Source: a bacterium (GTDB lineage Bacteria > JAHJDO01). Taken from it: a stretch of 64,000 bases of DNA. Position numbers and translations under genes: made by a program. The notes below the pieces were generated by a model. It worked only from the letters and a program-made list of their open reading frames with translations, was not told where the DNA came from and did not search any database. Location: assembly GCA_030652805.1 (NCBI GenBank), contig JAUSPT010000024.1, positions 37,050 to 101,049 of the forward strand, read 5' to 3'. Below are positions 25,831-44,716 of the stretch, in pieces; position 1 is the stretch's first letter, and every line of letters starts with the position of its first letter.

Positions 25831-26037
25831 ATGGCAGTAGAAAAAGCAATCGGTTCATCTAGTTTGGTTGAGGTTATTGACAGAATCCTTGACAAGGGTG
25901 TTGTGGTTGATGCATGGGTTAGAATTTCTTTAGTTGGTATTGAATTACTCGCTATTGAAGCAAGAGTCGTAGTCGCATCAGTCGAGACATACCTGAAGTA
26001 TGCTGAAGCAATTGGTCTAACCGCAACAGCAGCTTAA
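25831..26037 (+). CDS. gvpA: Gas vesicle major structural protein GvpA
   Basis: A 68-residue protein with the canonical GvpA core: [20 protein letters not shown], then [33 protein letters not shown]. This is the hydrophobic helix-beta-beta-helix subunit that forms the ribs of the gas-filled shell. Length is typical. ATG at 25831 follows GGGGAGG; an in-frame GTG at 25822 overlaps that site and is rejected. It is the first gene after the sigma-54 promoter and is followed by a hairpin that could let it be made in excess over the downstream genes. Three further GvpA-family proteins are encoded at 30832, 38960 and 41728. Confidence 0.97.
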
Positions 26038-26048
26038 GTATAGTTTAA

Positions 26049-26199
26049 AAAAAGGATTCTTGCCGAGCCACCCTTTTGAGCGCAGATTGGCGCAGATGTA
26101 AAAGACAGATGCACACAGAGAAATCTGTGATAATCAGCGTAAAAAAATCAGTGTTAATCTGTGGTTTAAACAGCATGGTTCGCCAAGAGATTCCTTTTT
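26049..26199 (+). terminator. Large imperfect hairpin between gvpA and the rest of the island
   Basis: AAAAAGGATTCTTGCCGAGCCA (given in parts: 26049-26070) is nearly complementary to 26176-26199, which ends in CCTTTTT. The arms differ only by a two-base bulge and two mismatches. Between them lie further ATCTGTG/CAGAT words that can pair. The long stem ending in a T-run suggests a partial terminator or an mRNA end stabiliser, which would raise GvpA relative to the minor proteins. No gene fits in 26038-26226. Confidence 0.55.
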
Positions 26200-26226
26200 C
26201 CGTTCTGAGAAAAAAGGGGTAAAATT

Positions 26227-26925
26227 ATGGGAAGTGCCGAGGAAATGAAGAATTTGGCGCAAGGAATTGTTTCTTCTTATCAGGCCAGAGTTTCTGAAGT
26301 AGCCACGGTCATGGACAATGCTCACCAAATTCTTGAAGATTTTAAGCTCAAAAGAAGTGAGATGAGCAGTCAACTTAGAGAAACCCTTGCCAATGGAGAG
26401 TCTCTCAGAAAAAAGGATTTTGATAATATGATGAAAGGCATCCTTTCCCATCAAGAAGAAAGAGAAAAAGAGGTAAAAGATTTATTAAAGACTTTTTTTG
26501 AAGAACAAAAAGAAATAGCTGAAGCCATTAGGAAGAATTTGGCCGAAGGCGAAAGCGTGAGAATAAGTGATTTTAAAAAGATGCTCCAGGATATTCAGGC
26601 AAGGCAGAAACTCAGGGAAAATGAAGTAAGAACGACCCTAAAGGAATTTCAGGAAGGACATAGGGAGATGGCTGAGTCTTTGCACAGCCTTTTAAATAAA
26701 GAAGAGTCCTTACGGATTGAGGACTTTAAAGAGATGCTAAAAGATATTCGTTCAAGACAGATAGAGCGGAAAAAAGAAGTCAGAACCAAACTTGATGAAT
26801 TCAGGAAAGAACATCAAAATATGACTTCCGAATGGAATAAACTAACCGGTCTTATGGCCGAGAAAAGAGCCAGCAAGCTGAGAGGAGGTGAGAGAGAGGA
26901 AAAGTTGGAAGTTGCCAGGGTTTAA
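26227..26925 (+). CDS. GvpC-like helical repeat protein (51-residue repeats)
   Basis: A 232-residue, highly charged, all-helical protein. A 56-residue N-terminal cap is followed by three repeats of about 51 residues (57-107, 108-158, 159-208), each starting GESLR..DF..M and continuing with xxRxxEV, a LLKxF and an EHxxMAxxL segment, then a basic tail. The next gene has the same cap and repeat. Position right after gvpA and the amphipathic repeat design suggest the role of GvpC, which binds and stiffens the outside of the shell, although the classical cyanobacterial repeat is 33 residues. Homology to GvpC is inferred, not shown. Confidence 0.7.
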   Translation: MGSAEEMKNLAQGIVSSYQARVSEVATVMDNAHQILEDFKLKRSEMSSQLRETLANGESLRKKDFDNMMKGILSHQEEREKEVKDLLKTFFEEQKEIAEAIRKNLAEGESVRISDFKKMLQDIQARQKLRENEVRTTLKEFQEGHREMAESLHSLLNKEESLRIEDFKEMLKDIRSRQIERKKEVRTKLDEFRKEHQNMTSEWNKLTGLMAEKRASKLRGGEREEKLEVARV

Positions 26926-26995
26926 TTTTGGATCCTGGGTAAGTAACCTGATGTATGGGAACTAAGAAACTAGAAGTTTAAGAGGAGGAATAAAG

Positions 26996-28027
26996 ATGGG
27001 AATAGCAAGTGATATCAAAGCACTGGGTGAGGACATTGTTGCCTCTTATGATACGCGAGTAAGGGCGATAGGTGTGCTTGTCAAGGACGTCGACAAAATG
27101 CTTAAGGGTCTTCATACGGATCATAAGAGTATGGCTGCCAATCTTAAAGCTGGCCTTAACAAGGGAGAAGAAGATAGGCTCAATGCCTTTAAGCCAATGA
27201 TAGCAGAAATTCAGAAGCGGACAAAGGAAATAGAAGTCTATGTTAAAACTCTGCTCAAAAAGTTTCACAGCGAGCATATGGAAATGTCTGCCAATCTTAA
27301 TGCCTCTCTTGCAAAAGGAGAAGAGGATCGACTTAAGGACTTTAGAGCAATGATGGCTGATGTTAAGAAGTTTGTAGCGGATATGGTTGATACGACTGCG
27401 AAACTGATGAAGCAAATTCAGGCTGAACAGAAAGATAGAAATAAAGGAGTAGCTGATCTCCTTGCAAAGTTTGCGCAAGACCATGCATCTATGGCAGATG
27501 AGCTTAGAAAAAGCCTTGCAAAAGGAGAAACAAACAGGCTTGAAGACTTCAAAAAGATGATAGATAGTATCCAAAAATATGTGGCTGATGTAATTAGTGC
27601 GACTAAGCAGCTAATTAGCGAAATTCAAGCAAGGCAGGATGAGAGAAACAAAGAGGTTCTTGCTCTCTTACAGGCATTCCAGGCCGAAAGAGAAAAGATG
27701 GCTGCTAACTGGCAGGCTCTGGCTGCAACAATGGAGAAGAGAAGAGGCGGTAAGCCGATTCCAGTTAAAGTAGAAGCCAGGCAGGAAGTAAAGACTGTTG
27801 AAGAGGCAGTGAAAGAAAAACCCAAAGCTAAACCTAAGGCTGGGCCTAAACCCAAAACACCTGAAGGTCAGATATTAGCTTTGCTTAGGGAGCATGCTGA
27901 AGGCATGAGCTTGCCGAATTTAGGAAATGAAGCAGGCTGCCACTTTATAAAGCTGACCAGTCCAATGAGAGGTCTGCTGGATAAAGGCAAAGTTAGAAAA
28001 GAAGATAATCTTTACTTTATTGCTTAG
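26996..28027 (+). CDS. GvpC-like helical repeat protein with C-terminal winged-helix-like domain
   Basis: A 343-residue relative of the preceding protein. The 56-residue cap (MGIASDIKALGEDIVASY...) is followed by one 51-residue repeat (57-107) and two 69-residue repeats (108-176, 177-245) that contain an 18-residue insertion after the GEEDRLxDF start. A Pro/Lys linker (about 250-285, with KAKPKAGPKPK) leads to a compact domain (285-343) resembling a small winged helix, with ILALLREHAEGMSLPNL. The repeats probably bind the shell; the end domain could bind another island protein. Start ATG at 26996 follows AGGAGG. Confidence 0.7.
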   Translation: MGIASDIKALGEDIVASYDTRVRAIGVLVKDVDKMLKGLHTDHKSMAANLKAGLNKGEEDRLNAFKPMIAEIQKRTKEIEVYVKTLLKKFHSEHMEMSANLNASLAKGEEDRLKDFRAMMADVKKFVADMVDTTAKLMKQIQAEQKDRNKGVADLLAKFAQDHASMADELRKSLAKGETNRLEDFKKMIDSIQKYVADVISATKQLISEIQARQDERNKEVLALLQAFQAEREKMAANWQALAATMEKRRGGKPIPVKVEARQEVKTVEEAVKEKPKAKPKAGPKPKTPEGQILALLREHAEGMSLPNLGNEAGCHFIKLTSPMRGLLDKGKVRKEDNLYFIA

Positions 28028-28043
28028 TGAATGGAGGTGAAAG

Positions 28044-28364
28044 ATGAGCGAGATAAAATGTGCTTTCTGCAAAGGCACGGGCAAGGATCCATTTGATCTT
28101 CTATCCGAGCTTGCTGTCTGCCAGGTTTGCGGAGGCAGGGGTAAAGTTGAGGTAAAAGAGCCGGCAATCAAGTGTGTCTTTTGTAGCAGCACCGGTATCT
28201 ATCCTCGTAGTCGAGTTACCTGCACTGTATGTAATGGCAAAGGAATGGTTGCGGTTAAAGGCGCGACTGACGAGTGCCCTAAGTGCAAAGGCACAGGCAG
28301 AGCAATAGATAGCGGACTTCCCTGCATTAAATGTGGAGGCAAAGGGGTCGTTTCAAAAAAATGA
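28044..28364 (+). CDS. Stand-alone DnaJ-type zinc finger protein (six CXXCXGXG motifs), copy 1
   Basis: A 106-residue protein made almost only of cysteine motifs: CAFCKGTG, CQVCGGRG, CVFCSSTG, CTVCNGKG, CPKCKGTG and CIKCGGKG. DnaJ itself has four such motifs binding two zincs; this has six, enough for three. There is no J domain. Stand-alone DnaJ zinc fingers such as plant BSD2 act as specific assembly chaperones, so a role in holding unassembled Gvp proteins is plausible. Two paralogues are at 30149 and 31667. Its TGA overlaps the ATG of the next gene. Confidence 0.85.
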   Translation: MSEIKCAFCKGTGKDPFDLLSELAVCQVCGGRGKVEVKEPAIKCVFCSSTGIYPRSRVTCTVCNGKGMVAVKGATDECPKCKGTGRAIDSGLPCIKCGGKGVVSKK

Positions 28365-28546
28365 CTGAATTAAACTCCTCCAGGGAAGACTTTCTTAGAA
28401 AAAGAAAGGAAGCGTTAGATAAGTTGAGTTCCTGCCGGGAAGGTTTTAGAAGGAAGGAGAAGAGAATAAAAGCGGATTTGGCAGAGGCGGGCAAGACTTG
28501 GGAGAAAGTGAGCCAAAAGTTCAAGTGGTGGCAGTCTCTGCCCTAG
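28361..28546 (+). CDS. Small basic coiled-coil protein of the gas vesicle island
   Basis: A 61-residue Lys/Arg/Glu-rich helical protein (MTELNSSREDFLRKRKEAL start, FKWWQSLP end). Its ATG overlaps the stop of the zinc finger gene in the ATGA arrangement, which indicates translational coupling and fixes the start; the longer in-frame reading upstream lies inside the zinc finger gene. No family recognised. The RKRKEAL...CREGFRRKE pattern recalls the charged helices of the repeat proteins upstream, but no repeat is complete. Confidence 0.6.
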   Translation: MTELNSSREDFLRKRKEALDKLSSCREGFRRKEKRIKADLAEAGKTWEKVSQKFKWWQSLP

Positions 28547-28586
28547 AGGAAAAGAAAACAAAAATCAAAAAAGGAGGTAAGATAAG

Positions 28587-29507
28587 ATGGCAGCTGTTGA
28601 GGAGATGACCACAGTACTTGAACCAAGTCCTTTATCAGACTTTGTGGAAACAAAGTATGTGAAGGATGTCACTAATCGGACACTTTCCTATATTAAGGCC
28701 GGTTTTCCGGTCCATTTTCGAGGTCCTTCAGGGACAGGAAAGACCACTCTGGCTATGCATGTAGCCAGTAAGGTTAAAAGGCCGGTGGTAATGATTCACG
28801 GGGATGAAGAGTTTACAACCTCTGATTTGGTGGGTGGTGAACATGGCTACAGGTTTAGAAAGGTTGTAGACAGATTTGTCTCCAGGGTGTTGAAAGTGGA
28901 AGAAGATATGGTAAAGCGCTGGGTGGATAACCGTTTAACGGTTGCCTGTAAGTATGGTTTTACCCTTATCTATGATGAATTCACACGTTCCCGTCCTGAG
29001 GCAAACAATATTCTTCTCTCTATTTTGCAGGAGAAGATGATGGATCTGCCAGTGGGAAGAGGCGGAGAAGAACCGTATTTAAAGGTTGACCCTGATTTTA
29101 CCGCTATTTTCACATCAAACCCTGAGGAATATGCCGGAGTTCATCGGAGTCAGGACGCTCTTAGGGACAGAATGATAACCATGGATTTGGACCATTTTGA
29201 TTATGATACGGAAATAGGTATTACCAGGGCAAAATCCAAACTCTCTAAACAAGATTCTGAGAGGATAGTTAATATTGTAAGAGGATTGAGGGAATCAGGA
29301 AAGTGTGAGTATGCACCAACCGTACGCGGCTGTATTATGATTGCTAAGACGCTTAAAGTTCTGGGCACTGCTCCTGCTAAGAGTAATGGTTCCTTCAGCG
29401 CGATGTGTCAGGACATATTGGCTTCTGAGACCAGTAGAGTTGGCTCAAAGACGAATCAGGACAGGGTAAAGGGGATAGTTAAGGAGTTGGTTAAGAAATA
29501 TAGTTAA
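28587..29507 (+). CDS. gvpN: Gas vesicle AAA+ ATPase GvpN
   Basis: A 306-residue MoxR-type AAA+ ATPase. Walker A GPSGTGKT is at 46-53, the HGDEEFTTSDLVGG segment follows, Walker B is LIYDEFTRSRPE, and a FTSNPEEYAG sensor region and a DALRDRM arginine finger area come later. The EFTTSDLVGG...YDEFTRSRPEANN order is characteristic of GvpN, which is needed for vesicles to grow from small bicones to full size. The start at 28587 has AAGGAGG. Length is slightly under that of most GvpN proteins, but all motifs are intact. Confidence 0.93.
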   Translation: MAAVEEMTTVLEPSPLSDFVETKYVKDVTNRTLSYIKAGFPVHFRGPSGTGKTTLAMHVASKVKRPVVMIHGDEEFTTSDLVGGEHGYRFRKVVDRFVSRVLKVEEDMVKRWVDNRLTVACKYGFTLIYDEFTRSRPEANNILLSILQEKMMDLPVGRGGEEPYLKVDPDFTAIFTSNPEEYAGVHRSQDALRDRMITMDLDHFDYDTEIGITRAKSKLSKQDSERIVNIVRGLRESGKCEYAPTVRGCIMIAKTLKVLGTAPAKSNGSFSAMCQDILASETSRVGSKTNQDRVKGIVKELVKKYS

Positions 29508-29585
29508 AAGACAGAGGGCAGAAGGCAGAAAGCAGAAAAATCTGCTCTCAGAAATCTGGTTTCTGAATAAGAGAGGAGAAAGAAA

Positions 29586-29756: not shown

Positions 29757-29791
29757 GTCTGTAAGTTTCTCACATTATAAGGGAGAGAACA

Positions 29792-30127
29792 ATGAAGGAT
29801 GTTAATAGTCTGCCGGGACTCCATAAGTTGAGGACTATGTTTAGTGCCAAGAAGAGGTCCATACCAAAGGTTCAAAGCTCGGGTTATTTAGATTTGTATA
29901 TGCTCGGGAAAGAGAAAGAGAGACTCCTGAAGGAAGATGAGAGGCTGGATATGAGAAAAGACACTCTCAAGAAGCGCCTGGAGGAGATAGACCTGGAGAT
30001 GAATCAACTACAGGAGGTCTCGAAAAGCGGGATTAAATCTGCTCCGGACATAGGTTTTTCAGGAGGCACTTTCACGCAGAAAAATGGAGTCAAAAAAGAG
30101 TGGAAAAAGATGTCTTTAAATTATTAA
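29792..30127 (+). CDS. Coiled-coil protein with KKMxxxY tail, copy 1
   Basis: A 111-residue protein, not matched to a known family. Residues 30-75 form a charged coiled coil (EKERLLKEDERLDMRKD). The C-terminus is KKEWKKMSLNY, which closely matches the end of the protein at 39601 (RKERFKKMNIEY). Two unrelated-length proteins of the same island sharing only this tail suggests a docking or targeting peptide. Start ATG follows GGGAGAG. Expected to be cytoplasmic. Confidence 0.65.
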   Translation: MKDVNSLPGLHKLRTMFSAKKRSIPKVQSSGYLDLYMLGKEKERLLKEDERLDMRKDTLKKRLEEIDLEMNQLQEVSKSGIKSAPDIGFSGGTFTQKNGVKKEWKKMSLNY

Positions 30128-30148
30128 CAACTGCATAGGTGGTTGAGA

Positions 30149-30541
30149 ATGAATTGGAACACATTTGACTTTAAAAGCGGGAAAAGCGGAAGAACCAGGT
30201 CAGGACGAAGGATAGGTGAGATTTTGGAAGGGGATAAGTTTAGATGTTCATTATGCAGAGGCACAGGGATATTACCCCGAACCAAGGGCACAAGATGTCA
30301 TGTATGTAAAGGCTCAGGCATAGTTTCCTTAACCGGACCGGCAGTAGTATGCGCTTACTGCAAAGGCAGAGGCGATTATCCGCCGAGGACAAGTCTTACC
30401 TGTACGGTTTGCGGAGGGAAGGGTTTAGTTAGCATTACCAAACCCATTGAAATATGCGAACATTGCCGGGGAACCGGTGCTGAGCCGGGCAATAAACTAC
30501 CTTGCTTAAAATGCAAAGGTAAGGGTGTGATTACAAAATAG
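30149..30541 (+). CDS. Stand-alone DnaJ-type zinc finger protein (six CXXCXGXG motifs), copy 2
   Basis: A 130-residue paralogue of the protein at 28044. A 30-residue N-terminus (MNWNTFDFKSGKSG...RRIGEIL) precedes six motifs: CSLCRGTG, CHVCKGSG, CAYCKGRG, CTVCGGKG, CEHCRGTG and CLKCKGKG. The N-terminal WNTF..RRIGEIL segment is shared with copy 3 at 31667 (WQTMEWN...RRGEIL) but absent from copy 1. ATG at 30149 follows GGTGG and is preferred to an in-frame TTG at 30143. gvpO follows. Confidence 0.83.
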   Translation: MNWNTFDFKSGKSGRTRSGRRIGEILEGDKFRCSLCRGTGILPRTKGTRCHVCKGSGIVSLTGPAVVCAYCKGRGDYPPRTSLTCTVCGGKGLVSITKPIEICEHCRGTGAEPGNKLPCLKCKGKGVITK

Positions 30542-30558: not shown

Positions 30559-30816
30559 ATGAAAATAGAAGAAGTAGAGAAGGCGATCACAGATTTCTTT
30601 AAGAGCAGTCTTGGTGGAAAGGCAAAAGTAATAAAGATAGTAAAATCTCAGGATGGCTGGACAGGTGAGGCAGAGATTTATGAGGAGAGTTCATTTATTA
30701 AATCTTTAGGACTATCTACCAGAGTTCAGGATAGGAATATTTACGGGATTAAATTGACTGATGCCTTGGAAGTGGTCTCTTACGCGCGAAAAGAGGGATC
30801 TGTAAAAGAGGAATAA
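30559..30816 (+). CDS. gvpO: Gas vesicle protein GvpO, copy 1
   Basis: An 85-residue GvpO-family protein: an N-terminal helix (VEKAITDFFKSSLG), the GWTGEAEIYEESSFIKSLGL strand-turn and RDRN-like QDRNIYGIKL, ending VVSYARKE. GvpO is a small cytoplasmic accessory protein needed for gas vesicle formation in haloarchaea; its biochemical action is unsettled. Start follows GGGAGAG. A second copy at 38656 is about two-thirds identical by eye, and both are followed by a GvpA-family gene. Confidence 0.88.
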   Translation: MKIEEVEKAITDFFKSSLGGKAKVIKIVKSQDGWTGEAEIYEESSFIKSLGLSTRVQDRNIYGIKLTDALEVVSYARKEGSVKEE

Positions 30817-30831: not shown

Positions 30832-31128
30832 ATGACTAATAAAATGGCTCATGCTACTGAGGCGACGAATCTTGCGGATATTTTAGAAAGGGTTCTGGAT
30901 AAGGGGATAGTTATTGCCGGGGATATTAAGATCCAAATTGCCGACATTGATCTTCTCACTATCAAAATAAGGCTGTTGGTTGCCTCTGTGGATAAGGCAA
31001 TGGAGATGGGGATAAATTGGTGGCAGCAGGATTCTTATCTTTCTTCTGAAGCAAAAGAGAAAGAAATAGAGAACGAAAATAAATCCTTAAAAAAGAGATT
31101 AGAACGGTTAGAAGCGAAGATAAAATAA
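30832..31128 (+). CDS. GvpA-family minor protein (GvpJ/GvpM/GvpS-like) with coiled-coil tail
   Basis: A 98-residue protein. Residues 12-62 are a GvpA-like core (NLADILERVLDKGIVIAGDIKIQIADIDLLTIKIRLLVASVDKA), followed by the GINWW motif often seen in GvpJ and GvpS, and a C-terminal coiled coil (70-98). Minor GvpA homologues are thought to form the tips or nucleate the shell. The start follows AAGGAG. Which of J, M or S it corresponds to cannot be decided by eye. Confidence 0.85.
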   Translation: MTNKMAHATEATNLADILERVLDKGIVIAGDIKIQIADIDLLTIKIRLLVASVDKAMEMGINWWQQDSYLSSEAKEKEIENENKSLKKRLERLEAKIK

Positions 31129-31132: not shown

Positions 31133-31441
31133 ATGACCAGTATGGAGCGTGAGACTTTAGATGTTATTGCTGAAAATGAGGAGAGAGTCCATTATTACTT
31201 AATAGCTCAGGAATTAAAGGTAAGCGCTCATTATGCCTATGTGATTTGCAAAGGGCTTGAGAGAGACAAATATGTTGATTTTGATACATTTAAAGGAGTA
31301 TGCAGCTTAACAGAAAAAGGTAAAGAAACAGTGGAAGAGAATTGGCTTTTTAAACTTAAGCAGCAAAAGCAGAATATTCAGAAGAGAAGAAAAGAAAATA
31401 AGGGAAAAATTTCTAAGAATGTTGAGGTTGTAAATTATTAA
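31133..31441 (+). CDS. Small winged-helix-like protein with basic tail
   Basis: A 102-residue protein. Residues 1-65 look like a winged helix (RETLDVIAENEERVHYYLIAQELKVSAHYAYVICKGLERDKYVD, then a CSLTEKGKE wing); residues 66-102 are a Lys/Gln-rich tail. The next gene encodes a second, shorter winged helix of similar design. They could bind DNA as local regulators, but their place amid structural genes and the similar domain at the end of the repeat protein at 26996 leave a protein-binding role open. Starts four bases after the previous stop. Confidence 0.65.
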   Translation: MTSMERETLDVIAENEERVHYYLIAQELKVSAHYAYVICKGLERDKYVDFDTFKGVCSLTEKGKETVEENWLFKLKQQKQNIQKRRKENKGKISKNVEVVNY

Positions 31442-31444
31442 GAC

Positions 31445-31657
31445 GTGAGTATAACAGCTACAGAATTAGAAATACTAAGAATTATAAAAAAGAAAAACGG
31501 TTTAATATCTATGAAAGAGTTAAGCAGTAAAGCAGGGTTTGAGATAGGCTATACCTACATGTTGTGCAAGTCCCTGGAAAAGCAGGATTGTATTGGGTTT
31601 TTTACCCATTCATCTTGTAGAATAACTGCAACAGGCAAAGGTCTGATAAGCGAATAG
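31445..31657 (+). CDS. Short winged-helix-like protein
   Basis: A 70-residue protein with a single winged-helix pattern: TATELEILRIIKKKNGLISMKELSSKAGFEIGYTYMLCKSLEKQD, then a strand and an ITATGKGLI end. It aligns by eye with the first 65 residues of the preceding protein (same Y-V/M-xCKxLE core), so the pair probably arose by duplication. The start is GTG at 31445, three bases after the previous stop. Role unknown. Confidence 0.6.
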   Translation: MSITATELEILRIIKKKNGLISMKELSSKAGFEIGYTYMLCKSLEKQDCIGFFTHSSCRITATGKGLISE

Positions 31658-31666: not shown

Positions 31667-32053
31667 ATGAGCTGGCAAACAATGGAGTGGAATAAACAAA
31701 AGATCGGGCGCAGAGGAGAGATTTTAACCAGGGATGTCTACAGATGCGGTTTTTGTAGAGGCACAGGTCTCCTTTCTTCTAAAAAGGGGATAAAATGTCC
31801 TGTTTGTTTAGGTAATGGAGAGGCAAAGGTTTCATCTCCGGCTGTAATTTGCGCTTATTGCAATGGAACGGGAAAAAGACATCCTCGAACTACCCTCACC
31901 TGTACTGTTTGCCGAGGAAAGGGTGTTGTGAGCGTGGGAACTTCTGATATTGAAGCTTGTCCTACTTGCAAAGGAATAGGCAGGGAACGCGGCAGGACTC
32001 TTCCCTGTTTAACCTGCAAAGGGACAGGCGTTATTCCTAAAAAGAAGAGATAA
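31667..32053 (+). CDS. Stand-alone DnaJ-type zinc finger protein (six CXXCXGXG motifs), copy 3
   Basis: A 128-residue paralogue of the proteins at 28044 and 30149. After a WQTMEWN...RRGEIL N-terminus come CGFCRGTG, CPVCLGNG, CAYCNGTG, CTVCRGKG, CPTCKGIG and CLTCKGTG. ATG at 31667 follows AGGAGG. An Hsp20-type gene follows after 32 bases, an association of two chaperone types in one operon. Confidence 0.83.
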   Translation: MSWQTMEWNKQKIGRRGEILTRDVYRCGFCRGTGLLSSKKGIKCPVCLGNGEAKVSSPAVICAYCNGTGKRHPRTTLTCTVCRGKGVVSVGTSDIEACPTCKGIGRERGRTLPCLTCKGTGVIPKKKR

Positions 32054-32085
32054 TATTTTAGTATTAAATGTACAGGGAGAAAAAA

Positions 32086-32604
32086 ATGGCTAAAGAAAAG
32101 AAAAAAAATGAAGAAGCGGTAGGTTTTGATTTTGGCATTGGTGGGCTGTTTAAAGGTATTGAGAAATTAGTTGACCTGGCAGCAGATTTAAAAGAGGCCG
32201 GAGGGGAGATTAAGAAAGAAGGCGAAATAGACCTGAGCCATCTTAAGAAAGGGATGAAGGGAGTATTTGGATTTTCTGTAAAAAGCGCGGTGGGAGGAAA
32301 ACCAACAGTTGAGACATTCGGCCACAAAATTAAGAAGACCCCTGAAGGTCCCACGGTTGAAGAAGAGAGAGAGCCTATCATAGATGTATTTGATGAAAAA
32401 GAAGAGATCCGAGTCTATGCTGAGATGCCGGGGGTAAATGACGAGTCTATATCGGTTGATTTAAAAGGGGATATATTAGAAATAACAGCTGTAAGTAAGG
32501 ATAGAAAATACCGCAAGGAAATTTTGCTTCCTGCTAAAGTTGAATCTAAAACTTTAGAGAGGAGTTTTAAAAACGGTATCTTAGAAATAAAAATAAAGAA
32601 ATGA
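32086..32604 (+). CDS. Hsp20-family protein of the gas vesicle island (GvpH-like), copy 1
   Basis: A 172-residue protein. The last 85 residues are an Hsp20/alpha-crystallin domain (PIIDVFDEKEEIRVYAEMPGV start, LERSFKNGILEIKIKK end). The N-terminal half is charged and specific to this locus (GGLFKGIEKLVDLAADLKEAGG, then a Gly/Lys-rich linker). GvpH proteins of other gas vesicle clusters have the same domain. The ATG at 32086 follows GGGAG; the ATG at 32068 is in frame but lacks a binding site. The Get3-type gene starts four bases later. Confidence 0.8.
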   Translation: MAKEKKKNEEAVGFDFGIGGLFKGIEKLVDLAADLKEAGGEIKKEGEIDLSHLKKGMKGVFGFSVKSAVGGKPTVETFGHKIKKTPEGPTVEEEREPIIDVFDEKEEIRVYAEMPGVNDESISVDLKGDILEITAVSKDRKYRKEILLPAKVESKTLERSFKNGILEIKIKK

Positions 32605-37645: not shown

Positions 37646-37646
37646 G

Positions 37647-38414
37647 ATGGAAACGGCTGTAAAACGAGGTAAATATATATATTGCGTAATTGAGTCAAAT
37701 CAAGCCCAATCATTCGGTTCGCCGGGAGTTGGCGGAAGAGGGGACGAATTGCATACTATTTGCTTTAACGATATAGCAGTTGTAGTGAGCAATTCTCCAA
37801 TAATAAAATACCCGGTATCAAGGGAGAATACACTTGCTCATGAAAAGGCAATTGAGGAAGTGATGGAAAAATATGTAGTTTTGCCGGTAAGATTTTGTAC
37901 AATTGCTGAAGACGAGAAGAAGGTAAAAAAGATTTTAGAAAGAGAGCATGATAAATTCAAAGATTTGTTGGATGAGATCAAAGGGAAAAAAGAGCTCGGA
38001 TTAAAAGCAATATTTAAAGAGGATGTTATTTATAAAGATATCCTGGAAAAACATGAAGGCATAAGAAAGTTAAAAGAAGGGCTGGCTTCTAAACCCCCTG
38101 AAGCGACCCATTACGAACGTATGGAAATAGGAAAAATGGTGGAAACTGCTCTACAAAAAGAAAAAGAGATTTGTGAAAAGGAAATTATTAATGCTCTTTT
38201 GCCTTTGGCAGTAGAGCATAAGACGAATAATACCTATGGTGAACGAATGATTATTAATGCGGCTTTTTTAGTGGAGAAAAGCAAAGAAACAGAATTTGAT
38301 CAGAAGGTTCAGGAACTTGACGGAAAATATGGTAATAAAATAAAATTTAAATATGTGGGCACATTACCGCCATTTAATTTTGTCAATTTAGTAATTAATA
38401 TAGGAGAGTATTAA
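37647..38414 (+). CDS. Gas vesicle protein GvpF/GvpL, copy 3
   Basis: A 255-residue GvpF/L-family protein: RGKYIYCVIES start, GSPGVGGRGDELHTI, AHEKAIEEVM, VVLPVRFCTIA, and end FKYVGTLPPFNFVNLV. The ATG at 37647, just after the TAA of copy 2 and behind GGGAG, is the start; an in-frame reading into copy 2 is rejected. Its TAA overlaps the ATG of gvpG, so F/L and G are translationally coupled, matching their known co-requirement. Confidence 0.9.
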   Translation: METAVKRGKYIYCVIESNQAQSFGSPGVGGRGDELHTICFNDIAVVVSNSPIIKYPVSRENTLAHEKAIEEVMEKYVVLPVRFCTIAEDEKKVKKILEREHDKFKDLLDEIKGKKELGLKAIFKEDVIYKDILEKHEGIRKLKEGLASKPPEATHYERMEIGKMVETALQKEKEICEKEIINALLPLAVEHKTNNTYGERMIINAAFLVEKSKETEFDQKVQELDGKYGNKIKFKYVGTLPPFNFVNLVINIGEY

Positions 38415-38653
38415 TGTTTTTAATTGATGATATATTCCTTGCGCCATTGAAAGGGGTGGTTTGGCTTGGCAAGAAGATGAATGAGGTTATAGAGAAGGAA
38501 ATCTCTGATGAAGGGCGGATAAAAGAGAAACTTATGGAATTACAAATGCAGTTTGAACTTGATGAAATAAACGATGAAGAATATAAGAAGCAGGAAGAAG
38601 AACTTTTAGCGCGATTGGACGCTATTAGAAAAGCAAAAGAAGAGGAGGTGTGA
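38414..38653 (+). CDS. gvpG: Gas vesicle protein GvpG
   Basis: A 79-residue GvpG: a hydrophobic start (FLIDDIFLAPLKGVVWLGKKMNEVIEKE) and a charged helical rest ending in LLARLDAIRKAKEEE. The LIDDIFLAPLKG motif is typical. GvpG is an accessory protein that works with GvpF and GvpL. Start overlaps the previous stop (TAATG). Confidence 0.93.
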   Translation: MFLIDDIFLAPLKGVVWLGKKMNEVIEKEISDEGRIKEKLMELQMQFELDEINDEEYKKQEEELLARLDAIRKAKEEEV

Positions 38654-38655
38654 AG

Positions 38656-38913
38656 ATGGCTAATATGGAAGAAGCTAAGAAAGCAGTTGCAGAGTTTTTA
38701 AAAAAGACCCTTAATGTCAAAGATGTAAAGGTTATTAAGGTTGGAAAGAGCGAAAAGGGCTGGGAGACAGAAGCAGAAGTATATGAAGAAAGTTCATTTA
38801 TAAAGGCTCTCGGACTTCCAACAAGAGTAAAGGACCGGAATATCTATGAGATTAAATTGGATGATAAGTTGGAAGTAGAGTCTTACGAACGTAAAAAGGA
38901 AGAGAAGGAATAG
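38656..38913 (+). CDS. gvpO: Gas vesicle protein GvpO, copy 2
   Basis: An 85-residue GvpO with the same pattern as the copy at 30559: VKVIKVGKSEKGWETEAEVYEESSFIKALGL and KDRNIYEIKLDDKLEVESYER. ATG at 38656 follows GAGGAGG; the GTG at 38650 is in frame but lies within that site. The pair gvpO then GvpA-family gene then later Hsp20 occurs twice in the island, suggesting a block duplication. Confidence 0.88.
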   Translation: MANMEEAKKAVAEFLKKTLNVKDVKVIKVGKSEKGWETEAEVYEESSFIKALGLPTRVKDRNIYEIKLDDKLEVESYERKKEEKE

Positions 38914-38959: not shown

Positions 38960-39325
38960 ATGGCTTTAGAGGCGACAAGAGGTAATGGTGGTGATAACGG
39001 AACTCTGGTTGACGTAATAGACCGCATTCTGGATAAGGGTTTAGTCATCAATGCGGATATTACTGTATCCGTAGCGGGGGTTGAATTACTTGGTGTAAAG
39101 GTTCGGGCAGCTCTGGCTTCATTTGAAACCGCAGCAAAATATGGTTTAGAATTCCCCTCAGGCACTAATTACGAAACCGCGGCATGGAAAGAGGCGGCAA
39201 AAGGTAAAGATGAATGTCCGCAGTGTGCTAAAAAGGTACTGACAGATGAACTGATGAATAAAGGATGCCCTTGGTGCGGCTGGCAAAGCGCTAAGGCAAA
39301 ACTAAAACCAAAACAAATAGTCTAA
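38960..39325 (+). CDS. GvpA-family protein fused to a C-terminal zinc ribbon
   Basis: A 121-residue protein. Residues 14-62 are a GvpA core ([20 protein letters not shown], then VAGVELLGVKVRAALASFETAAKYG). A short linker leads to a zinc ribbon with Cys86, Cys89, Cys103 and Cys106 (CPQCAKKVLTDELMNKGCPWCGW). The same ribbon recurs in the next gene and in the protein at 41728. Minor GvpA homologues may cap or nucleate the shell; the ribbon could stay on the cytoplasmic side and recruit partners. The start follows AAAGGAGGAAC. Confidence 0.88.
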   Translation: MALEATRGNGGDNGTLVDVIDRILDKGLVINADITVSVAGVELLGVKVRAALASFETAAKYGLEFPSGTNYETAAWKEAAKGKDECPQCAKKVLTDELMNKGCPWCGWQSAKAKLKPKQIV

Positions 39326-39330: not shown

Positions 39331-39597
39331 ATGAGCAAAAAGGAAAAATCGAGATTAGGCGGGTTTAATCTTCTAGGCATTCCTCTAGACCCTACTTTGG
39401 GTGTAGGAGATAAGGTTTTAGACCATGTAGATGAATCAATAGAAGCTGAAAAAAGAAAAGAAGCGGGTTCTAAATATTGGGCCCGTTGCTCTTTCTATTA
39501 CACTGTTTGCCCTAAATGCAGTCGTAAGGTAATTACTGAAGAGTTGGAAGAAAAGGGATGTTTTGTTTGTGGATATAAACCTAATAAGGAGGAGTGA
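39331..39597 (+). CDS. Zinc-ribbon protein of the gas vesicle island
   Basis: An 88-residue protein. The N-terminal half (GGFNLLGIPLDPTLGVGDKVLDHV) is unique; residues 58-83 are a zinc ribbon with Cys60, Cys63, Cys77 and Cys80 (CPKCSRKVITEELEEKGCFVCGYKP), nearly the same as the ribbon on the GvpA-family protein encoded directly upstream. The [IL]T[ED]EL..KGC spacing is conserved among all copies. Likely a soluble member of the same interaction set. Starts five bases after the previous stop. Confidence 0.75.
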   Translation: MSKKEKSRLGGFNLLGIPLDPTLGVGDKVLDHVDESIEAEKRKEAGSKYWARCSFYYTVCPKCSRKVITEELEEKGCFVCGYKPNKEE

Positions 39598-39600: not shown

Positions 39601-39990
39601 ATGCGCGTTAAAATTAACACAAATAGAGATATAAAAAGTAACATGGACATTGCAAGAAAACAGAAGATACCATCTATGACATCAAAGATAGAGGATATAG
39701 TAAAGGCAGAATTGGAAGAAGAATTTGGACCAACATTGACAGAGGAAGAACTCTCTAAAATAGCCCAGAAGGAAAAAGAGAGAAAAGTAAAGCGGGATTT
39801 GGCCTTGAAAAACTCTAGGATGAAAATAATGAGGGTAAAGGAAAAGGCGAGGGAGACTCAGAGGATAAGACAGGAAATAGCTAAGGGGAAAACTTGCCAC
39901 CACATCAAGGATTTTAGCGCGGGGGCAAACCTCAAAGTTAGCGGAGATTCTAGAAAAGAGAGGTTTAAGAAAATGAATATTGAATACTAA
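39601..39990 (+). CDS. Coiled-coil protein with KKMxxxY tail, copy 2
   Basis: A 129-residue, strongly charged helical protein (EEELSKIAQKEKERKVKRD, then KEKARETQRIRQEIAKG). Its end, RKERFKKMNIEY, matches the end of the protein at 29792. The rest of the two proteins is only loosely similar, both coiled coil with a Gly/Ser-containing linker before the tail. GGAGGAG precedes the start. Function unknown; the tail looks like a peptide ligand for a shared partner. Confidence 0.65.
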   Translation: MRVKINTNRDIKSNMDIARKQKIPSMTSKIEDIVKAELEEEFGPTLTEEELSKIAQKEKERKVKRDLALKNSRMKIMRVKEKARETQRIRQEIAKGKTCHHIKDFSAGANLKVSGDSRKERFKKMNIEY

Positions 39991-39991
39991 T

Positions 39992-40033
39992 CTTGCTGCA
40001 AGTTGTTTTATTTGTGGATATAAGGGAGGATAA
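39992..40033 (+). pseudogene. Fossil end of a zinc-ribbon reading frame
   Basis: Between two genes a short open stretch reads LAASCFICGYKGG and then stop. It matches the end of the zinc-ribbon protein encoded about 420 bases upstream (GCFVCGYKP), also at base level (TGTTTT.TTTGTGGATATAA). It has no start codon or first cysteine pair. It looks like the leftover 3' end of a duplicated ribbon gene, probably displaced when the neighbouring gene was inserted. Confidence 0.45.
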
Positions 40034-40038
40034 AGGAA

Positions 40039-40605
40039 ATGGATGAAGAAAAAAAGCGAAATCCTGAGAAGCAAAGAGATAAAAAGAAAGAACCTGGTAG
40101 AGAAAAGGAAGAGGGTATAGCAGGAGAAACTCTTAAAGGGATTGGTAAGATGATTCCAGGATTGGGTGGATTGTTCAGGGGTCTGAGAAAATCTCCAGTA
40201 TTCAAAGAAAGATTAAAAAAGATTGATGAAGAAGTAGAGCGCAAGTTGAAGGAAGCTCCCTTAGAAAAGACAGAAAAAGGAAAATTTAAGATAGAGGGAA
40301 AGTTTGAAGCAAGGCATTTAGCTCCAGATAAACCATTTATGAGAAAGGAAGTTTCTCCTCCAATGCCACAGGAAAGGTCAGCAGATATTTTTGACGAGGA
40401 AGATCATATTAAAATAATAGCTGAAATCCCCGGCGTAGATGCAAATGATATAAATCTTAATTTGCAAGGGAATAAACTTACTATATCTGTAGATACCCTT
40501 GACCGTAAATATCATCAGGAATTGAAACTACCCTGCGAACCTAAAGGGGAATTGCAGAAGTCTTATAAGAATGGGATCTTAGAAGTAAAGATAAAAAAGG
40601 AATAA
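40039..40605 (+). CDS. Hsp20-family protein of the gas vesicle island (GvpH-like), copy 2
   Basis: A 188-residue protein. The last 80 residues are an Hsp20 domain (DIFDEEDHIKIIAEIPGVDANDINL start, LQKSYKNGILEVKIKKE end). The N-terminal half is charged, with a GGLFRGLRKSPVFKERLKKIDEEVERKL helix comparable to GGLFKGIEKLVDLAADL in copy 1, so the two are true paralogues and not separate acquisitions. Start ATG follows AAAGG. gvpK follows after 24 bases. Confidence 0.8.
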   Translation: MDEEKKRNPEKQRDKKKEPGREKEEGIAGETLKGIGKMIPGLGGLFRGLRKSPVFKERLKKIDEEVERKLKEAPLEKTEKGKFKIEGKFEARHLAPDKPFMRKEVSPPMPQERSADIFDEEDHIKIIAEIPGVDANDINLNLQGNKLTISVDTLDRKYHQELKLPCEPKGELQKSYKNGILEVKIKKE

Positions 40606-40629
40606 TTTTTCATTGGAGCAAAATGACAT

Positions 40630-40953
40630 ATGCCAATAGATATTGATGAGGATAATCTAAAACACGGGGTTTTAGGGCTGGTTATTGCTTTAGTGGAGGT
40701 AATTAAAGATGCTCTTAATCTCCAGGCAATGAAACGTATGGAGGGAGGATCTCTTACGGAAGAAGAGATGGAACGATTGGGCGAAGCCCTTATGGATTTA
40801 GATGTGGCAATTGAGGATATAAAAAAGGAACAGGGTGTTACTGAGTCAGTTAAATCCGTAAGGGATGGATTGGATAGTATTGTGGATGATGTATTAGACA
40901 AGATGATAAATCCAGAAAGATGGAGGAAAGAAGCAGAGGAGAAAGGAATTTAA
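40630..40953 (+). CDS. gvpK: Gas vesicle protein GvpK
   Basis: A 107-residue GvpK. Signature segments are DNLKHGVLGLVIALVEVIKDAL, MKRMEGGSLTEEEMERLGEALMDLD and a closing acidic/basic helix. GvpK is an essential small accessory protein in many gas vesicle clusters. Length is typical. The next gvpF/L gene begins two bases after the stop. Confidence 0.94.
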   Translation: MPIDIDEDNLKHGVLGLVIALVEVIKDALNLQAMKRMEGGSLTEEEMERLGEALMDLDVAIEDIKKEQGVTESVKSVRDGLDSIVDDVLDKMINPERWRKEAEEKGI

Positions 40954-40954
40954 G

Positions 40955-41719
40955 ATGAATGAAGCAAGATATCTTTATTGTATAGCCGATGGAAATAAAA
41001 AGATAACATTTGGCAATATTGGAATAGAGGATAGCGAAGTCTACACTATCCCTTATGAAGATTTATGCGCTGTAGTTCATAATTGTCCTTCAGAGCCCTA
41101 CAAATCAGAGGATAATGAAGTGGTGAAAAAATGGGTAACGGCTCACCAGAAGGTTGTTGATACTGTCTGGGGAAAATTTGGCACTGTCTTACCATTGGGT
41201 TTTGATACCATAATTAAAGGCGAGAAGGGGACTACCCCGGATAAGAATATGAAGAATTGGATTAAAGAAGATTACAAAAATTTAAAAGAAAAGATAGCTA
41301 AGCTTAAAGGCAAGGCTGAGTATGGGGTTCAGATTTCCTGGGACCCTAAGGTGATTGGAGAAAAGTTAATAGAAAGTAATCAAGAGATTAAGAAATTAAA
41401 TGAGGAGATAAAATCCAAATCCAAGGGTCTTGCTTATATGTATAAACAGAAACTGGAGAATCTCTTGAAGAAAGAGATGGAAGTGGAGGCGGAAAGGCAT
41501 TTTAAAGATTTTTACGAGAAAATTAAAAAATGTGCGAATGAAATTAAAGTAGAAAAGACTAAAAAACTTGAAGAAGGAAAACAAATGCTGATAAACCTTT
41601 CTTGTCTTTTACCCAAAGAAAAAAGCAAGGTATTAGGCGAGGAGTTAGAAAAGATTAACGATATGGAAGAATTCTACGTTCGCTTCACTGGTCCCTGGCC
41701 GCCATATAGTTTTGTATAG
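40955..41719 (+). CDS. Gas vesicle protein GvpF/GvpL, copy 4
   Basis: A 254-residue GvpF/L-family protein: EARYLYCIADGN start, a VYTIPYEDLCAVVHN strand, AHQKVVDTVWGKFGTVLPLGFDTI, a long coiled middle (130-215) and the end VRFTGPWPPYSFV. It is more divergent from copies 2 and 3 and lacks their R-F-G-T motif in full (L-G-F-D-T here). It lies between gvpK and a GvpA-family fusion gene, suggesting a separate partner. Confidence 0.9.
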   Translation: MNEARYLYCIADGNKKITFGNIGIEDSEVYTIPYEDLCAVVHNCPSEPYKSEDNEVVKKWVTAHQKVVDTVWGKFGTVLPLGFDTIIKGEKGTTPDKNMKNWIKEDYKNLKEKIAKLKGKAEYGVQISWDPKVIGEKLIESNQEIKKLNEEIKSKSKGLAYMYKQKLENLLKKEMEVEAERHFKDFYEKIKKCANEIKVEKTKKLEEGKQMLINLSCLLPKEKSKVLGEELEKINDMEEFYVRFTGPWPPYSFV

Positions 41720-41727
41720 GATAAAAA

Positions 41728-42834
41728 ATGGAACCGACCCGCAATGTTCAGGCAACTTTGGTTGATTTATTGGATAGGATACTGGATAAGGGGCTGGTAA
41801 TCAACGCCGATATTATCATCTCTGTGGCTGGTATTCCTTTAATCGGCGTTAATTTGAGAGCGGCGTTAGCAGGAATGGAGACTATGCTTAAATACGGGGT
41901 GATGCAGTCCTGGGATGAGAAGAGCAGGGCATGGGAGAGGGAACATCAGAAGAAGGCTCTTCCTTCTCTGGTTGAAGGGGAGAAGATCGCCCTGAAAATA
42001 TATGGTTCTTATTATTATAGTAAAGGAATATATAATGCCTGGAAACCAGGCTATTTTTATTTAACTAATAAAAGGCTTATTCTTCACCGTCAGGATTTTG
42101 ATGAAATCACCTTTCAGATACCATTAGAAAAAATAAAAGCATTAATAGTGAAAGAGGAAGAGCATTTTGTTAAAGAAAAGAAAAAACAGGTGCTTTATCT
42201 TATGGATAGACAGGATCAAGCGCATCGGCTTAGCGCAGTAGAGGCAAACCAATTAAAAGAGGCTATTGAACAAAGAATAAAGGATATGGGACTTTGTCTG
42301 GAAGAAAATCCTGTTCTTCCAGAGTTTGTGGATGAGCGAATTGCAGGTTCGCTGATGGAAGAAGAAAAGGTTAGTCATCAAGGGAAGAAAGTGTGGTATT
42401 TAGTGCCGCCTGAAGGAATTCAACAAGAGACCTGGAGACCGGGTCATCTCTATCTTACCAATAAAAGATTATTTTGGTGGTATGATTTTGATAAAAGAAT
42501 AGTTTTTGATGTTTCTGTTGATAAAATAGTTGGCGTTAATGCCGAGATGAGAAAAACAAGCGGTCTTGATAGTAAGAAAGAGAAAATCCTTGATATACTA
42601 TACGGGGTTAATTCAACAAAAAGAACAGCTTCTTTTGCCGGAAAGGAAATAGATGAATGGGCGGAAGCGCTAAACAGGATTGTTCCCGGCAAGATAAATG
42701 AGGAAATCGAAACCTGCCCCCAGTGCGGCAGGCCCGCCCCGGCCAAAGAATTATTAGAAGAGAGTTGCCAGAGCTGTGGCTGGGTCAGCCCTAGATTAAA
42801 AAAGAAGATAGCTCAAGCGGCTTTATCAGCATGA
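41728..42834 (+). CDS. GvpA-family protein fused to two GRAM/PH-like domains and a zinc ribbon
   Basis: A 368-residue protein of unusual design. Residues 10-60 are a GvpA core (LVDLLDRILDKGLVINADI, GVNLRAALAGMETMLKYGV). Two GRAM/PH-like domains follow (about 80-190 and 205-320), each with the hallmark strand GYFYLTNKRLILH or GHLYLTNKRLFWW. The end has a zinc ribbon with Cys330, Cys333, Cys347 and Cys350. GRAM domains bind lipids or proteins, so this could tie the shell tip to a membrane or to the assembly machinery. Its TGA overlaps the start of another double-GRAM protein. Confidence 0.85.
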   Translation: MEPTRNVQATLVDLLDRILDKGLVINADIIISVAGIPLIGVNLRAALAGMETMLKYGVMQSWDEKSRAWEREHQKKALPSLVEGEKIALKIYGSYYYSKGIYNAWKPGYFYLTNKRLILHRQDFDEITFQIPLEKIKALIVKEEEHFVKEKKKQVLYLMDRQDQAHRLSAVEANQLKEAIEQRIKDMGLCLEENPVLPEFVDERIAGSLMEEEKVSHQGKKVWYLVPPEGIQQETWRPGHLYLTNKRLFWWYDFDKRIVFDVSVDKIVGVNAEMRKTSGLDSKKEKILDILYGVNSTKRTASFAGKEIDEWAEALNRIVPGKINEEIETCPQCGRPAPAKELLEESCQSCGWVSPRLKKKIAQAALSA

Positions 42835-44039
42835 GAAGTTATTTAGATACTATAAGAAAACCGGTTAATTTACCTTTGCTTCAGGGCGAAGAAGTGCTTA
42901 AGTATTTTACGGCGAGCTACGATGTTGGGAGTTCACTTGCCTCATCCTGGAGACTGGGAAATTTATATCTTACCAATAAGAGACTGCTTTTTGTCCAGGG
43001 AAGAAAGATACTATTTGAGGGCCTGCTCAGCCAAATAAAGACTATAAATATAGTAAAGAGAAGATGGATTTTGGGTAAGAAAGTAAAACAACTAAGTATA
43101 GTATCTGAAGGCAGGAGAGCGCCATATATTGCCATAAAAGACCCTGAAGAATGGAAAAAAGCAATCCTTTCTGATCCACAGTCCCCAGTCCATAACTCGC
43201 AACCTGATGAAGTAATTTTAAAAGGAAGGGGTGGTTATTTAACTCCCGGTCAATCAAAGTGGAGGCTTGGCACTCTTCTCCTTACCAATAAAAAACTCGC
43301 ATTTTCCCAGTTGAGGGGAATTGTATGGGAGACGCCACTCAGCAGTATTAAGGGTTTAAGAATAGAAAAAAGAGTTTACGGGGTCAGTAAAAGTGATGCG
43401 ATATGTGTGGAATATGAATCTTTGGGTGAATTATTAAAAGCATGGATTATATCGCTTAATTTAGAGACTTGGAGAAAAGAGCTATATGAGAGAGTATTAC
43501 TAAAAGTAGATCGGGAGACATTAGATAAAATTGTTACCGAATTGGATCCAGGTTCAAAAGGGATACTCTGGTTTCTTTATGAGAACCGACACGCAAGAAT
43601 CGATATCTTAGCCAAGCTCATAAAGTCTCCTACCCATATGGATGTTTTACTTAAAATAAGGGAGATTATAAACCCAACAGCTGAAAAGCTCATCGGCTAT
43701 CCTATACTCTCATTCGAGAGTTCAAAAGTTGACTGGGAAACTGGCGAGAAAGTTACGTTTAGCTGGTGGCTCGCTGGTCAGCCTTATAGAGAGAAAATGG
43801 AGCCGCTTCTGGACATATTTGATGAGGATGCTGAGCTGGTAGTCTATTTAGAGATGGTAGGTATTAAAGAAGATAAGTTATGCTTAAGTGTGGTGAATAA
43901 CAAACTTATTATTGATGCAGATAAAAATTATCATAAAGAAATTTCTCTTCCCGCAGTGGTTAATACAAATAGTTTTACCAAGAGGTATAAAAATAATATA
44001 TTGGAAGTAAGGTTAAAAAAGGGAAAGTGTAACAGGTGA
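42831..44039 (+). CDS. Double GRAM/PH-like, winged-helix-like and Hsp20 fusion protein
   Basis: A 402-residue protein. Two GRAM/PH-like domains (1-110 and 115-215) carry WRLGNLYLTNKRLLF and WRLGTLLLTNKKLAF strands. Residues 220-300 look like a winged helix (LDPGSKGILWFLYENRHARIDILAKLI). The last 80 residues are an Hsp20/p23-like domain (LLDIFDEDAELVVYLEMVGI start, YKNNILEVRLKKG end), clearly related to the two Hsp20 proteins of this island. ATGA overlap with the preceding GvpA-GRAM gene indicates coupling. A membrane- or shell-linked chaperone is a reasonable guess; no precedent known to me. Confidence 0.78.
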   Translation: MRSYLDTIRKPVNLPLLQGEEVLKYFTASYDVGSSLASSWRLGNLYLTNKRLLFVQGRKILFEGLLSQIKTINIVKRRWILGKKVKQLSIVSEGRRAPYIAIKDPEEWKKAILSDPQSPVHNSQPDEVILKGRGGYLTPGQSKWRLGTLLLTNKKLAFSQLRGIVWETPLSSIKGLRIEKRVYGVSKSDAICVEYESLGELLKAWIISLNLETWRKELYERVLLKVDRETLDKIVTELDPGSKGILWFLYENRHARIDILAKLIKSPTHMDVLLKIREIINPTAEKLIGYPILSFESSKVDWETGEKVTFSWWLAGQPYREKMEPLLDIFDEDAELVVYLEMVGIKEDKLCLSVVNNKLIIDADKNYHKEISLPAVVNTNSFTKRYKNNILEVRLKKGKCNR

Positions 44040-44716
44040 GAAAACTTATTTATGTGCCGATTATACATATGAGCGCTGACTTAGGCAGTGTTGCCAAGCA
44101 GGTAAATAAAAGAGGTATTGCAGATTTTGGAGAGGAATTCTGGAAGAAACACAGAGAGACTGTGTCCGGCTTTTGGGATTCGATTGTAAAATATTTTGCC
44201 AATTTAGAGGTTAAAGATTTTAAGATATACCAGGATGGCTTGGTAGCTGATGGAGAAGTTGGCCAAAAAATAGTGGAGGAAGGCGTTAAATCCGGCAGTA
44301 AAAATTATGAAGTTATCGATGATTTATTGAAGAAAGGGGGGATTTTAGTCCAGACAGAGGATTTCCCTCTGGTTAAAGAAGAAAGAGATCGTATTGTTAA
44401 AATTACCCAGGCTAAGACGATAACAACGAAGTTAATAGCATATTTAGGATATAGATTGACTAAGGATTGGTTACTAAGGAAAAGAGATAATTATATAGCT
44501 AAGAGGATAGATGAAACTTTAGAACATGGCGGAGAAAAGGGCATCCTCTTTTTAGGTGCATACCACAACATAATACCTGAACTCTCTAAAAAAATTCAGA
44601 TAACTGAGGTAAAGGAAGCAAAAAAAGTAAGGGATTATCAAAGATTGCTTCTCTCATTTAGAAAGAATAAAGAAGAATTTGAAGAGTTAGCAAGATATTT
44701 AATCTCACCAATATAA
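44036..44716 (+). CDS. Conserved protein at the end of the gas vesicle island, function unknown
   Basis: A 226-residue soluble protein. The GTG start at 44036 overlaps the previous stop, so it belongs to the operon. The first strand LIYVPIIHMSADLGS and the late segment GILFLGAYHNIIPEL are spaced like the two histidine motifs of TraB/Tiki-type proteins (GxxH and GAGH), but the match is weak and I do not assign it. A basic region (KDWLLRKRDNYIAKR) lies between. Last gene before an inverted repeat. Confidence 0.6.
   Translation: MRKLIYVPIIHMSADLGSVAKQVNKRGIADFGEEFWKKHRETVSGFWDSIVKYFANLEVKDFKIYQDGLVADGEVGQKIVEEGVKSGSKNYEVIDDLLKKGGILVQTEDFPLVKEERDRIVKITQAKTITTKLIAYLGYRLTKDWLLRKRDNYIAKRIDETLEHGGEKGILFLGAYHNIIPELSKKIQITEVKEAKKVRDYQRLLLSFRKNKEEFEELARYLISPI

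Follow-up and report, generated by a model that had tools for sequence, protein, structure and literature searches.

A gas vesicle gene island with a probable folding and quality-control set, and its recurrence across bacterial phyla

We analysed a 64,000-nt stretch of contig JAUSPT010000024.1 (assembly GCA_030652805.1, positions 37,050 to 101,049; hereafter "the window"), from a bacterium of lineage JAHJDO01 whose phylum is represented by just five genomes of one genus. The window, part of a 2.0-Mb draft genome, probably holds a complete gas vesicle (gvp) island with a set of genes dedicated to the folding and quality control of the hydrophobic GvpA/J/M proteins. The island comprises 30 open reading frames (ORFs), all on the plus strand, between window positions 25,822 and 44,716. 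Family searches identified four members of the GvpA/J/M family, GvpN, GvpG, GvpK, two GvpO and four GvpF/L proteins, together with three DnaJ-type zinc-finger proteins, three Hsp20 domains, a Get3/ArsA ATPase, a full CDC48 and a fusion of GvpF/L to a J domain. Curated NCBI cut-offs are exceeded by GvpA, GvpN, Get3 and CDC48, and Pfam cut-offs by GvpF/L, GvpG, GvpK and the second GvpO. Every gvp core gene and chaperone component named in the initial annotation is present on the plus strand; gvpA, listed there as a single gene, was confirmed, but its family has four members.

Chaperone and proteostasis genes of the island

The J domain that the initial annotation had noted lies at the C-terminus of a GvpF/L protein (GvpF-J; 35863–36867; PF06386, 170 bits; PF00226, 40.4 bits). 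A model of this protein (predicted local distance difference test score, pLDDT, 93.9) resembles both GvpF crystal structures and solved J domains, including the J helical hairpin. The window protein keeps the HPD motif, as do about 50 of 59 homologues, and a gene for DnaK lies elsewhere in the genome. Most simply, GvpF-J would bring DnaK to GvpA.

The DnaJ zinc finger is made of four CxxCxGxG motifs. All three stand-alone zinc-finger proteins of the island (28044–28364, 30143–30541 and 31667–32053; 44, 50 and 46 bits against PF00684, the DnaJ central domain, with a cut-off of 32.7) depart from this pattern in having six motifs of this type, and six CxxC are kept in 69 of 77 homologous ORFs. 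They represent an enlarged version of the DnaJ zinc finger. The island also departs from the architecture of class A Hsp40 (DnaJ) in that zinc finger and J domain are on separate chains. Two of the three Hsp20 domains exceed the Pfam cut-off: Hsp20 protein 1 (32068–32604) scores 32.1 bits against PF00011, with 134 bits against the archaeal Hsp20 model NF041800 (below its cut-off of 140), and Hsp20 protein 2 (40039–40605) scores 24.2 bits (cut-off 20.8). The third, fused to PH/GRAM-like domains (42831–44039), falls under the cut-off (20.5 bits versus 22.5) and was recognized by a family hidden Markov model (HMM). The GvpH model PF05455 reached 20.4 bits, below its cut-off of 22.

The two ATPases have intact catalytic motifs. 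The Get3/ArsA ATPase (32608–33543; TIGR00345, 264.6 bits, cut-off 135) is a single-domain, CxxC-bearing protein whose nearest relatives among solved single-domain chains are archaeal Get3-type proteins. The P-loop is kept in 31 of 31 homologues and the inter-subunit CxxC, which aligns with CDFC of archaeal 3ug6, in 30 of 31. CDC48 (33543–35711; TIGR01243, 921 bits, cut-off 803), an unfoldase of archaeal type, has an N domain and two AAA rings (PF02359, PF02933 and two copies of PF00004). Judged by the Walker A, Walker B and arginine finger columns, both of its ATPase sites are intact in all 50 homologues.

Spread of the cluster and linkage of its chaperone genes to gvp genes

The same chaperone layout recurs far outside the window's phylum. 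Comparison of the window GvpN with named genomes yielded 80 loci, 63–88% identical and from at least 18 phylum-level groups. Their domain maps reveal a common order, with losses: GvpA, two repeat proteins, zinc finger, GvpN, coiled protein, zinc finger, Hsp20, Get3, CDC48, GvpF-J, two GvpF, GvpG, GvpO, GvpF, GvpA, GvpK. This neighbourhood comparison, proposed as a check in the initial annotation, upholds the association of chaperone and gvp genes and shows that such a cluster is not unique to the window. Among the 41 loci with at least 8 kb of sequence downstream of gvpN, GvpF-J is encoded in 40, Hsp20 in 38, CDC48 in 36, ArsA/Get3 in 30 and a zinc-finger protein in 26; 17 have all five. In two loci that lack an in-line CDC48 (L081 and L084), CDC48 is found elsewhere on the same contig, adjoining Hsp20 genes.

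The presence of CDC48 follows that of gas vesicle genes. Of 40 whole genomes with this gvpN, 38 encode a CDC48 N domain that scores above the cut-off; of 14 control genomes, four do, all of them archaea. In the Omnitrophota (209 genomes), CDC48 was found in six of the ten genomes with gvpA versus none of the 199 without it (P = 2e-9), and it shares one contig with gvpA in five of those six. In the four remaining Omnitrophota genomes with gvpA, the gvp genes are confined to short contigs; one of these genomes (G101) has a fragment of CDC48 at the contig end, next to GvpF-J. Within the window's own genus, CDC48 occurs in exactly the two genomes that have gvpA. Two Chloroflexota genomes encode a further, divergent CDC48; in neither does the examined stretch contain a gvp gene. 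Furthermore, GvpN, CDC48, GvpF-J, Get3 and the small coiled protein have correlated pairwise distances (r 0.56–0.78, permutation P 0.001 each). Together, co-occurrence, synteny and correlated divergence indicate that the chaperone genes are a genuine, conserved part of this cluster type rather than bystanders. Within this lineage, we found neither intact gvp genes that consistently lack the chaperone genes nor the chaperone genes together away from gvp genes, either of which would have spoken against the initial annotation. Most or all of the set is missing from other gvp clusters, such as those of Spartinivicinus and Halobacterium. Since several of these have few or none of the genes, the set is not a general requirement for gas vesicles.

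The phylogeny of GvpN crosses phylum boundaries. In a quick, single-gene tree, 49 sequences from about 12 phylum-level groups fall with the window sequence in one well-supported clade, and several phyla require multiple changes. Most of the related sequences are from metagenome bins, the names of which can be wrong, and near-identical pairs such as L007/L008 may be mis-binned. We rejected mis-binning as the sole cause of the cross-phylum tree, since the clade contains contigs of 88–222 kb that carry the cluster. A second gvpN occurs in several loci (L040, L049, L055, L057, L061–L063, L068, L069 and L081), and most of these second copies form a GvpN clade of their own.

Further genes, regulation and mosaic structure

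The island begins with gvpA (25822–26037; NF006874, 131 bits, cut-off 100), whose product is the major shell protein and is 94–99% identical to GvpA from other phyla. It is followed by two repeat proteins that the initial annotation lacked. The first (26227–26925) consists of 51-residue repeats, with a periodicity score of 1.11 versus 0.23 for the best of 200 shuffles; the second (26996–28027) ends in a winged-helix-like segment. An HMM of the repeat-protein family hits an annotated GvpC, that of Nostoc sphaeroides, at 5e-10, against 4.3 for the best of 500 shuffles. It also matches a Methylocella ORF between gvpA and gvpN (1.8e-10) and, weakly, an Octadecabacter ORF after gvpA (4.8e-4). Over L086–L110 and the window, it matches solely gvp-cluster proteins; Halobacterium GvpC is not matched (E 0.2). 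Neither repeat protein matches the Pfam GvpC model, nor the first any NCBIfam model. Given the matches of the HMM to Nostoc GvpC and, over this set, to gvp-cluster proteins only, both proteins are best described as GvpC-like, although the curated models searched miss them.

Between these genes and Hsp20 protein 1 are genes for a small conserved cluster protein (28331–28546; 71 aa; homologues in 22 of 80 loci), the AAA+ ATPase GvpN (28587–29507; TIGR02640, 339.5 bits, cut-off 266.8), the small coiled protein (29792–30127; found in 71 of 80 loci), a GvpO-like protein (30559–30816), a second GvpA/J-like protein (30832–31128; PF00741, 63 bits) and two winged-helix proteins of 102 and 70 aa (31133–31657), the second of which scores slightly below the MarR/HTH_24 cut-off. 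The coiled protein occupies the place of gvpV in Serratia, a likeness of position alone. Small winged-helix proteins are also encoded within the gvp operons of many related loci; together with the winged-helix-like tail of the second GvpC-like protein, they are possible regulators. Downstream of GvpF-J are two GvpF/L proteins (36875–38414; PF06386, 213 and 230 bits), GvpG (38414–38653; PF05120, 72 bits) and the second GvpO (38650–38913; PF05800, 27 bits, cut-off 25). Of the two GvpO proteins reported initially, this one is supported by Pfam; the first has no Pfam match of its own and is recognized as its relative by an HMM built with it.

The tail of the island encodes a GvpA-family protein fused to a zinc ribbon (38960–39325; PF00741, 62 bits; CxxC...CxxC tail), a small zinc-ribbon protein with paired CxxC (39331–39597; homologue in the Atribacteria bin L060), a conserved charged protein of 129 aa (39601–39990), GvpK (40630–40953; PF05121, 67 bits), the fourth GvpF/L protein (40955–41719; PF06386, 229 bits) and a GvpM-like protein with two PH/GRAM-like domains and a zinc ribbon (41728–42834; PF00741, 62.5 bits; Vps36_ESCRT-II, 34 bits). 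Relatives of the PH/GRAM-like fusions of GvpM-like and Hsp20 domains (41728–44039) occur in Atribacteria bins and, in L106/L107, next to CDC48; the PH-like domains of these fusions could bind membranes or proteins. The last gene (44036–44716) encodes a 226-aa protein with a predicted ChaN-like fold, without a Pfam or NCBIfam match, that represents a new gvp-associated family. Its members, from the window, L093, L106 and 17 further loci, form a 20-member alignment in which His, Asp, Glu and Arg residues are invariant. With Foldseek alone, the model (pLDDT 90.8) had no significant match; VIA-align ranked ChaN (2g5g) first, with a Z of 9.0, well above other matches. The family is possibly a hydrolase or a metal or haem binder.

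Intergenic gaps are at most 70 nt in 26 of 29 cases, and several are overlaps. Because the other three are larger (189, 284 and 151 nt), one to four transcripts are possible. A predicted σ54 promoter on the plus strand, TGGCACGGAATTTGCT (25702–25717), matches the consensus exactly and lies 120 nt before gvpA. Some 120 nt farther upstream is a palindrome, TTCTACA-N4-TGTAGAA (25567–25584), a candidate activator-binding site. The σ54 site is conserved, and the palindrome identical, in a congener (G001). Across loci, 18 of 63 gvpA upstream regions have σ54-type sites, a few of them far upstream, versus 0.25 expected by shuffling; with repeat entries of the window removed, the count is 16 of 61. 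The genome encodes rpoN. Scanned for σ70 promoters, the island had no more sites than shuffled sequence. Upstream, also on the plus strand, is a regulatory block (19758–25439) of sensor kinases and response regulators (19758, 21473, 22156 and 23440) whose last gene (24060–25439) encodes an NtrC-type σ54 activator, with domain names assigned by reading the translations. We propose that the main transcript would start at the σ54 promoter, under the control of the adjacent two-component/NtrC system.

The regulatory block belongs to the same inserted block as the gvp island: its orthologues lie beside the cluster of G001 and are absent from the empty site of a second congener, G002. In G002, the HD-domain gene that matches window positions 16,726–18,177 adjoins the same tRNA-Ala and HPF genes as lie after the island in the window; therefore, the whole block of ~18.2–44.9 kb, regulators included, is missing there. 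The clean absence of these 26.7 kb identifies the block as an insertion or deletion within the genus, compatible with both gain and loss. No 11-mers are common to the two ends of the block, and no integrase was noticed among the ORFs. At the left end, adjoining the HD-domain gene, is an AAA-type ATPase gene (18253–19584), DUF4143-like by reading.

The island is a mosaic. Its core, from Hsp20 through Get3, CDC48, GvpF-J, two GvpF and GvpG to GvpO (32.1–38.9 kb), is 89–97% identical to that of G001. The part before the core, gvpA and gvpN excepted, is closer to clusters from bins that bear the names of other groups than to G001: Bacteroidetes (L019), Elusimicrobia (L024), Phycisphaerae (L014), Thermodesulfobacteriota (L013), Omnitrophota (L008) or Cloacimonadota (L023). 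In the part after it (39.0–44.0 kb), the Gvp genes are nearest to those of Atribacteria bins or of another contig in this assembly, and nothing in the examined region of G001 corresponds closely to them; the last island gene is again 91% identical to G001. It looks as though both ends of the cluster have been exchanged around a kept core. That contig (C6, L094; 4,350 bp) repeats the cluster tail in diverged form: GvpK, GvpF, GvpM-PH-zinc ribbon, PH-Hsp20 and ChaN-like protein, with Gvp genes 77–85% identical and a homologue (64%) of the charged 129-aa protein. Either the assembly has two such clusters or this contig stems from a different organism.

Proposed function, alternatives and significance

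What is the functional significance of a chaperone set within a gas vesicle cluster? In other organisms, GvpF binds GvpA and is probably its chaperone (PMC11445434, PMC9501494), and GvpF–GvpA is the one step of the relay suggested in the initial annotation that rests on published binding. GvpF/L proteins would bind newly made GvpA, and the J domain of GvpF-J would recruit DnaK to the complex. The roles we infer for the other components are as follows: the six-motif zinc-finger proteins and the Hsp20s may hold subunits that are unfolded or being assembled; the Get3 homologue may shield hydrophobic segments, releasing them with ATP; and CDC48 may pull apart wrongly assembled subunits or strip off assembly factors. 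GvpN would afterwards drive growth of the shell, with the GvpC-like proteins bracing it. The Get3 homologue shares with the TRC40/Get3 pathway a Get3-family ATPase with a zinc-site CxxC, but its clients would be gas vesicle proteins, and no further pathway member was identified within the cluster. In Serratia 39006, which has several GvpA and GvpF proteins, gvpN and the small GvpV are needed for growth from bicone to cylinder (PMC4982088). The window likewise has gvpN and a further small protein, but ArsA and AAA proteins are unmentioned in the text of that paper.

Several observations weigh against a dedicated folding set. Some clusters, among them ones from Chloroflexota, lack CDC48, Get3 or the zinc-finger protein in the part examined; the HPD motif is changed in a minority of the 59 GvpF-J homologues; and organisms that lack most of the set, such as Halobacterium, are known to make gas vesicles. 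Moreover, linkage alone leaves the role of GvpA as a client unproven.

An alternative explanation, which we consider rather unlikely, is that the island is an ordinary variant of known gvp clusters, with little that is new. ArsA-family ATPases and Hsp20 were reported inside gvp operons of four phyla in 2010 (Castillo and Saier, PMC2963123), and the Nostoc gvp cluster has ArsA plus an AAA protein. The Methylosinus sp. C49 plasmid cluster (NZ_AP022334.1, L088) has a σ54 regulator upstream, GvpH and, at its end, an annotated CDC48-family ATPase; that of Octadecabacter arcticus (NC_020910.1, L087) has Hsp20 and an unremarked GvpF/L-J fusion. However, the ArsA of Castillo and Saier is a two-domain protein of about 640 aa, whereas that of the window is a single-domain, CxxC-bearing Get3 type of 311 aa, and CDC48, GvpF-J and the zinc-finger proteins are additions relative to their operons. 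Searches of the Methylosinus cluster found no Get3, J fusion or zinc-finger protein, and those of the Octadecabacter cluster no CDC48, Get3 or zinc-finger protein. In the open-access papers searched, judged mostly by title, abstract and term counts, we found no description of CDC48, J domains or J fusions, Get3 or zinc fingers in gvp clusters, nor of the cross-phylum spread of the whole set. The initial annotation's suggestion that such breadth is undescribed is hence too broad for ArsA, Hsp20 and CDC48 annotation, and stands in that literature for the J fusion, CDC48 and zinc fingers.

It is also conceivable, but unlikely, that CDC48, with the Hsp20, zinc-finger and J proteins, mainly dismantles vesicles or failed intermediates to lower buoyancy. 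Both ATPase rings of CDC48, an unfoldase/segregase, are intact, and Hsp20 proteins usually hold aggregating clients. Removal fits poorly with a J domain carried by GvpF/L, a family that binds GvpA early in assembly (PMC11445434), and with chaperone genes that lie inside the run of assembly genes rather than in a separate unit. Very unlikely is a role as general stress cargo that protects the cell and merely travels with gvp genes on a mobile block, as the insertion/deletion within the genus and the phylum-crossing GvpN tree might suggest: J and Hsp20 domains are fused to Gvp or cluster-specific proteins, gene order is conserved, divergence is correlated, and relatives without gvpA also lack CDC48.

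We therefore favour a folding and quality-control set. A more detailed version, which we put forward tentatively and with considerable doubt, is that an assembly system has passed between phyla with its own chaperone circuit. In it, GvpF-J would load GvpA on DnaK, a Get3 specific to gvp clusters would shield GvpA, and the shell would be proofread by a likewise specific CDC48, a protein otherwise rare in these bacteria; the core (Hsp20-Get3-CDC48-GvpF/G/O) would have been kept while both ends were swapped between phyla.

How the very hydrophobic GvpA avoids aggregation and enters the growing shell is an open question, for which GvpF as a chaperone and GvpN as an energy source are the current candidates. 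With GvpF joined to a J domain, and with Get3 and CDC48 besides, this cluster type makes the question directly testable by gene removal. Parts of the cluster might also raise the yield of gas vesicles in hosts that use them as ultrasound reporters. That the same cluster occurs in uncultured, often subsurface bacteria of many phyla prompts one to ask what purpose gas vesicles serve in them, and suggests that building them can need a protein quality-control line of its own.

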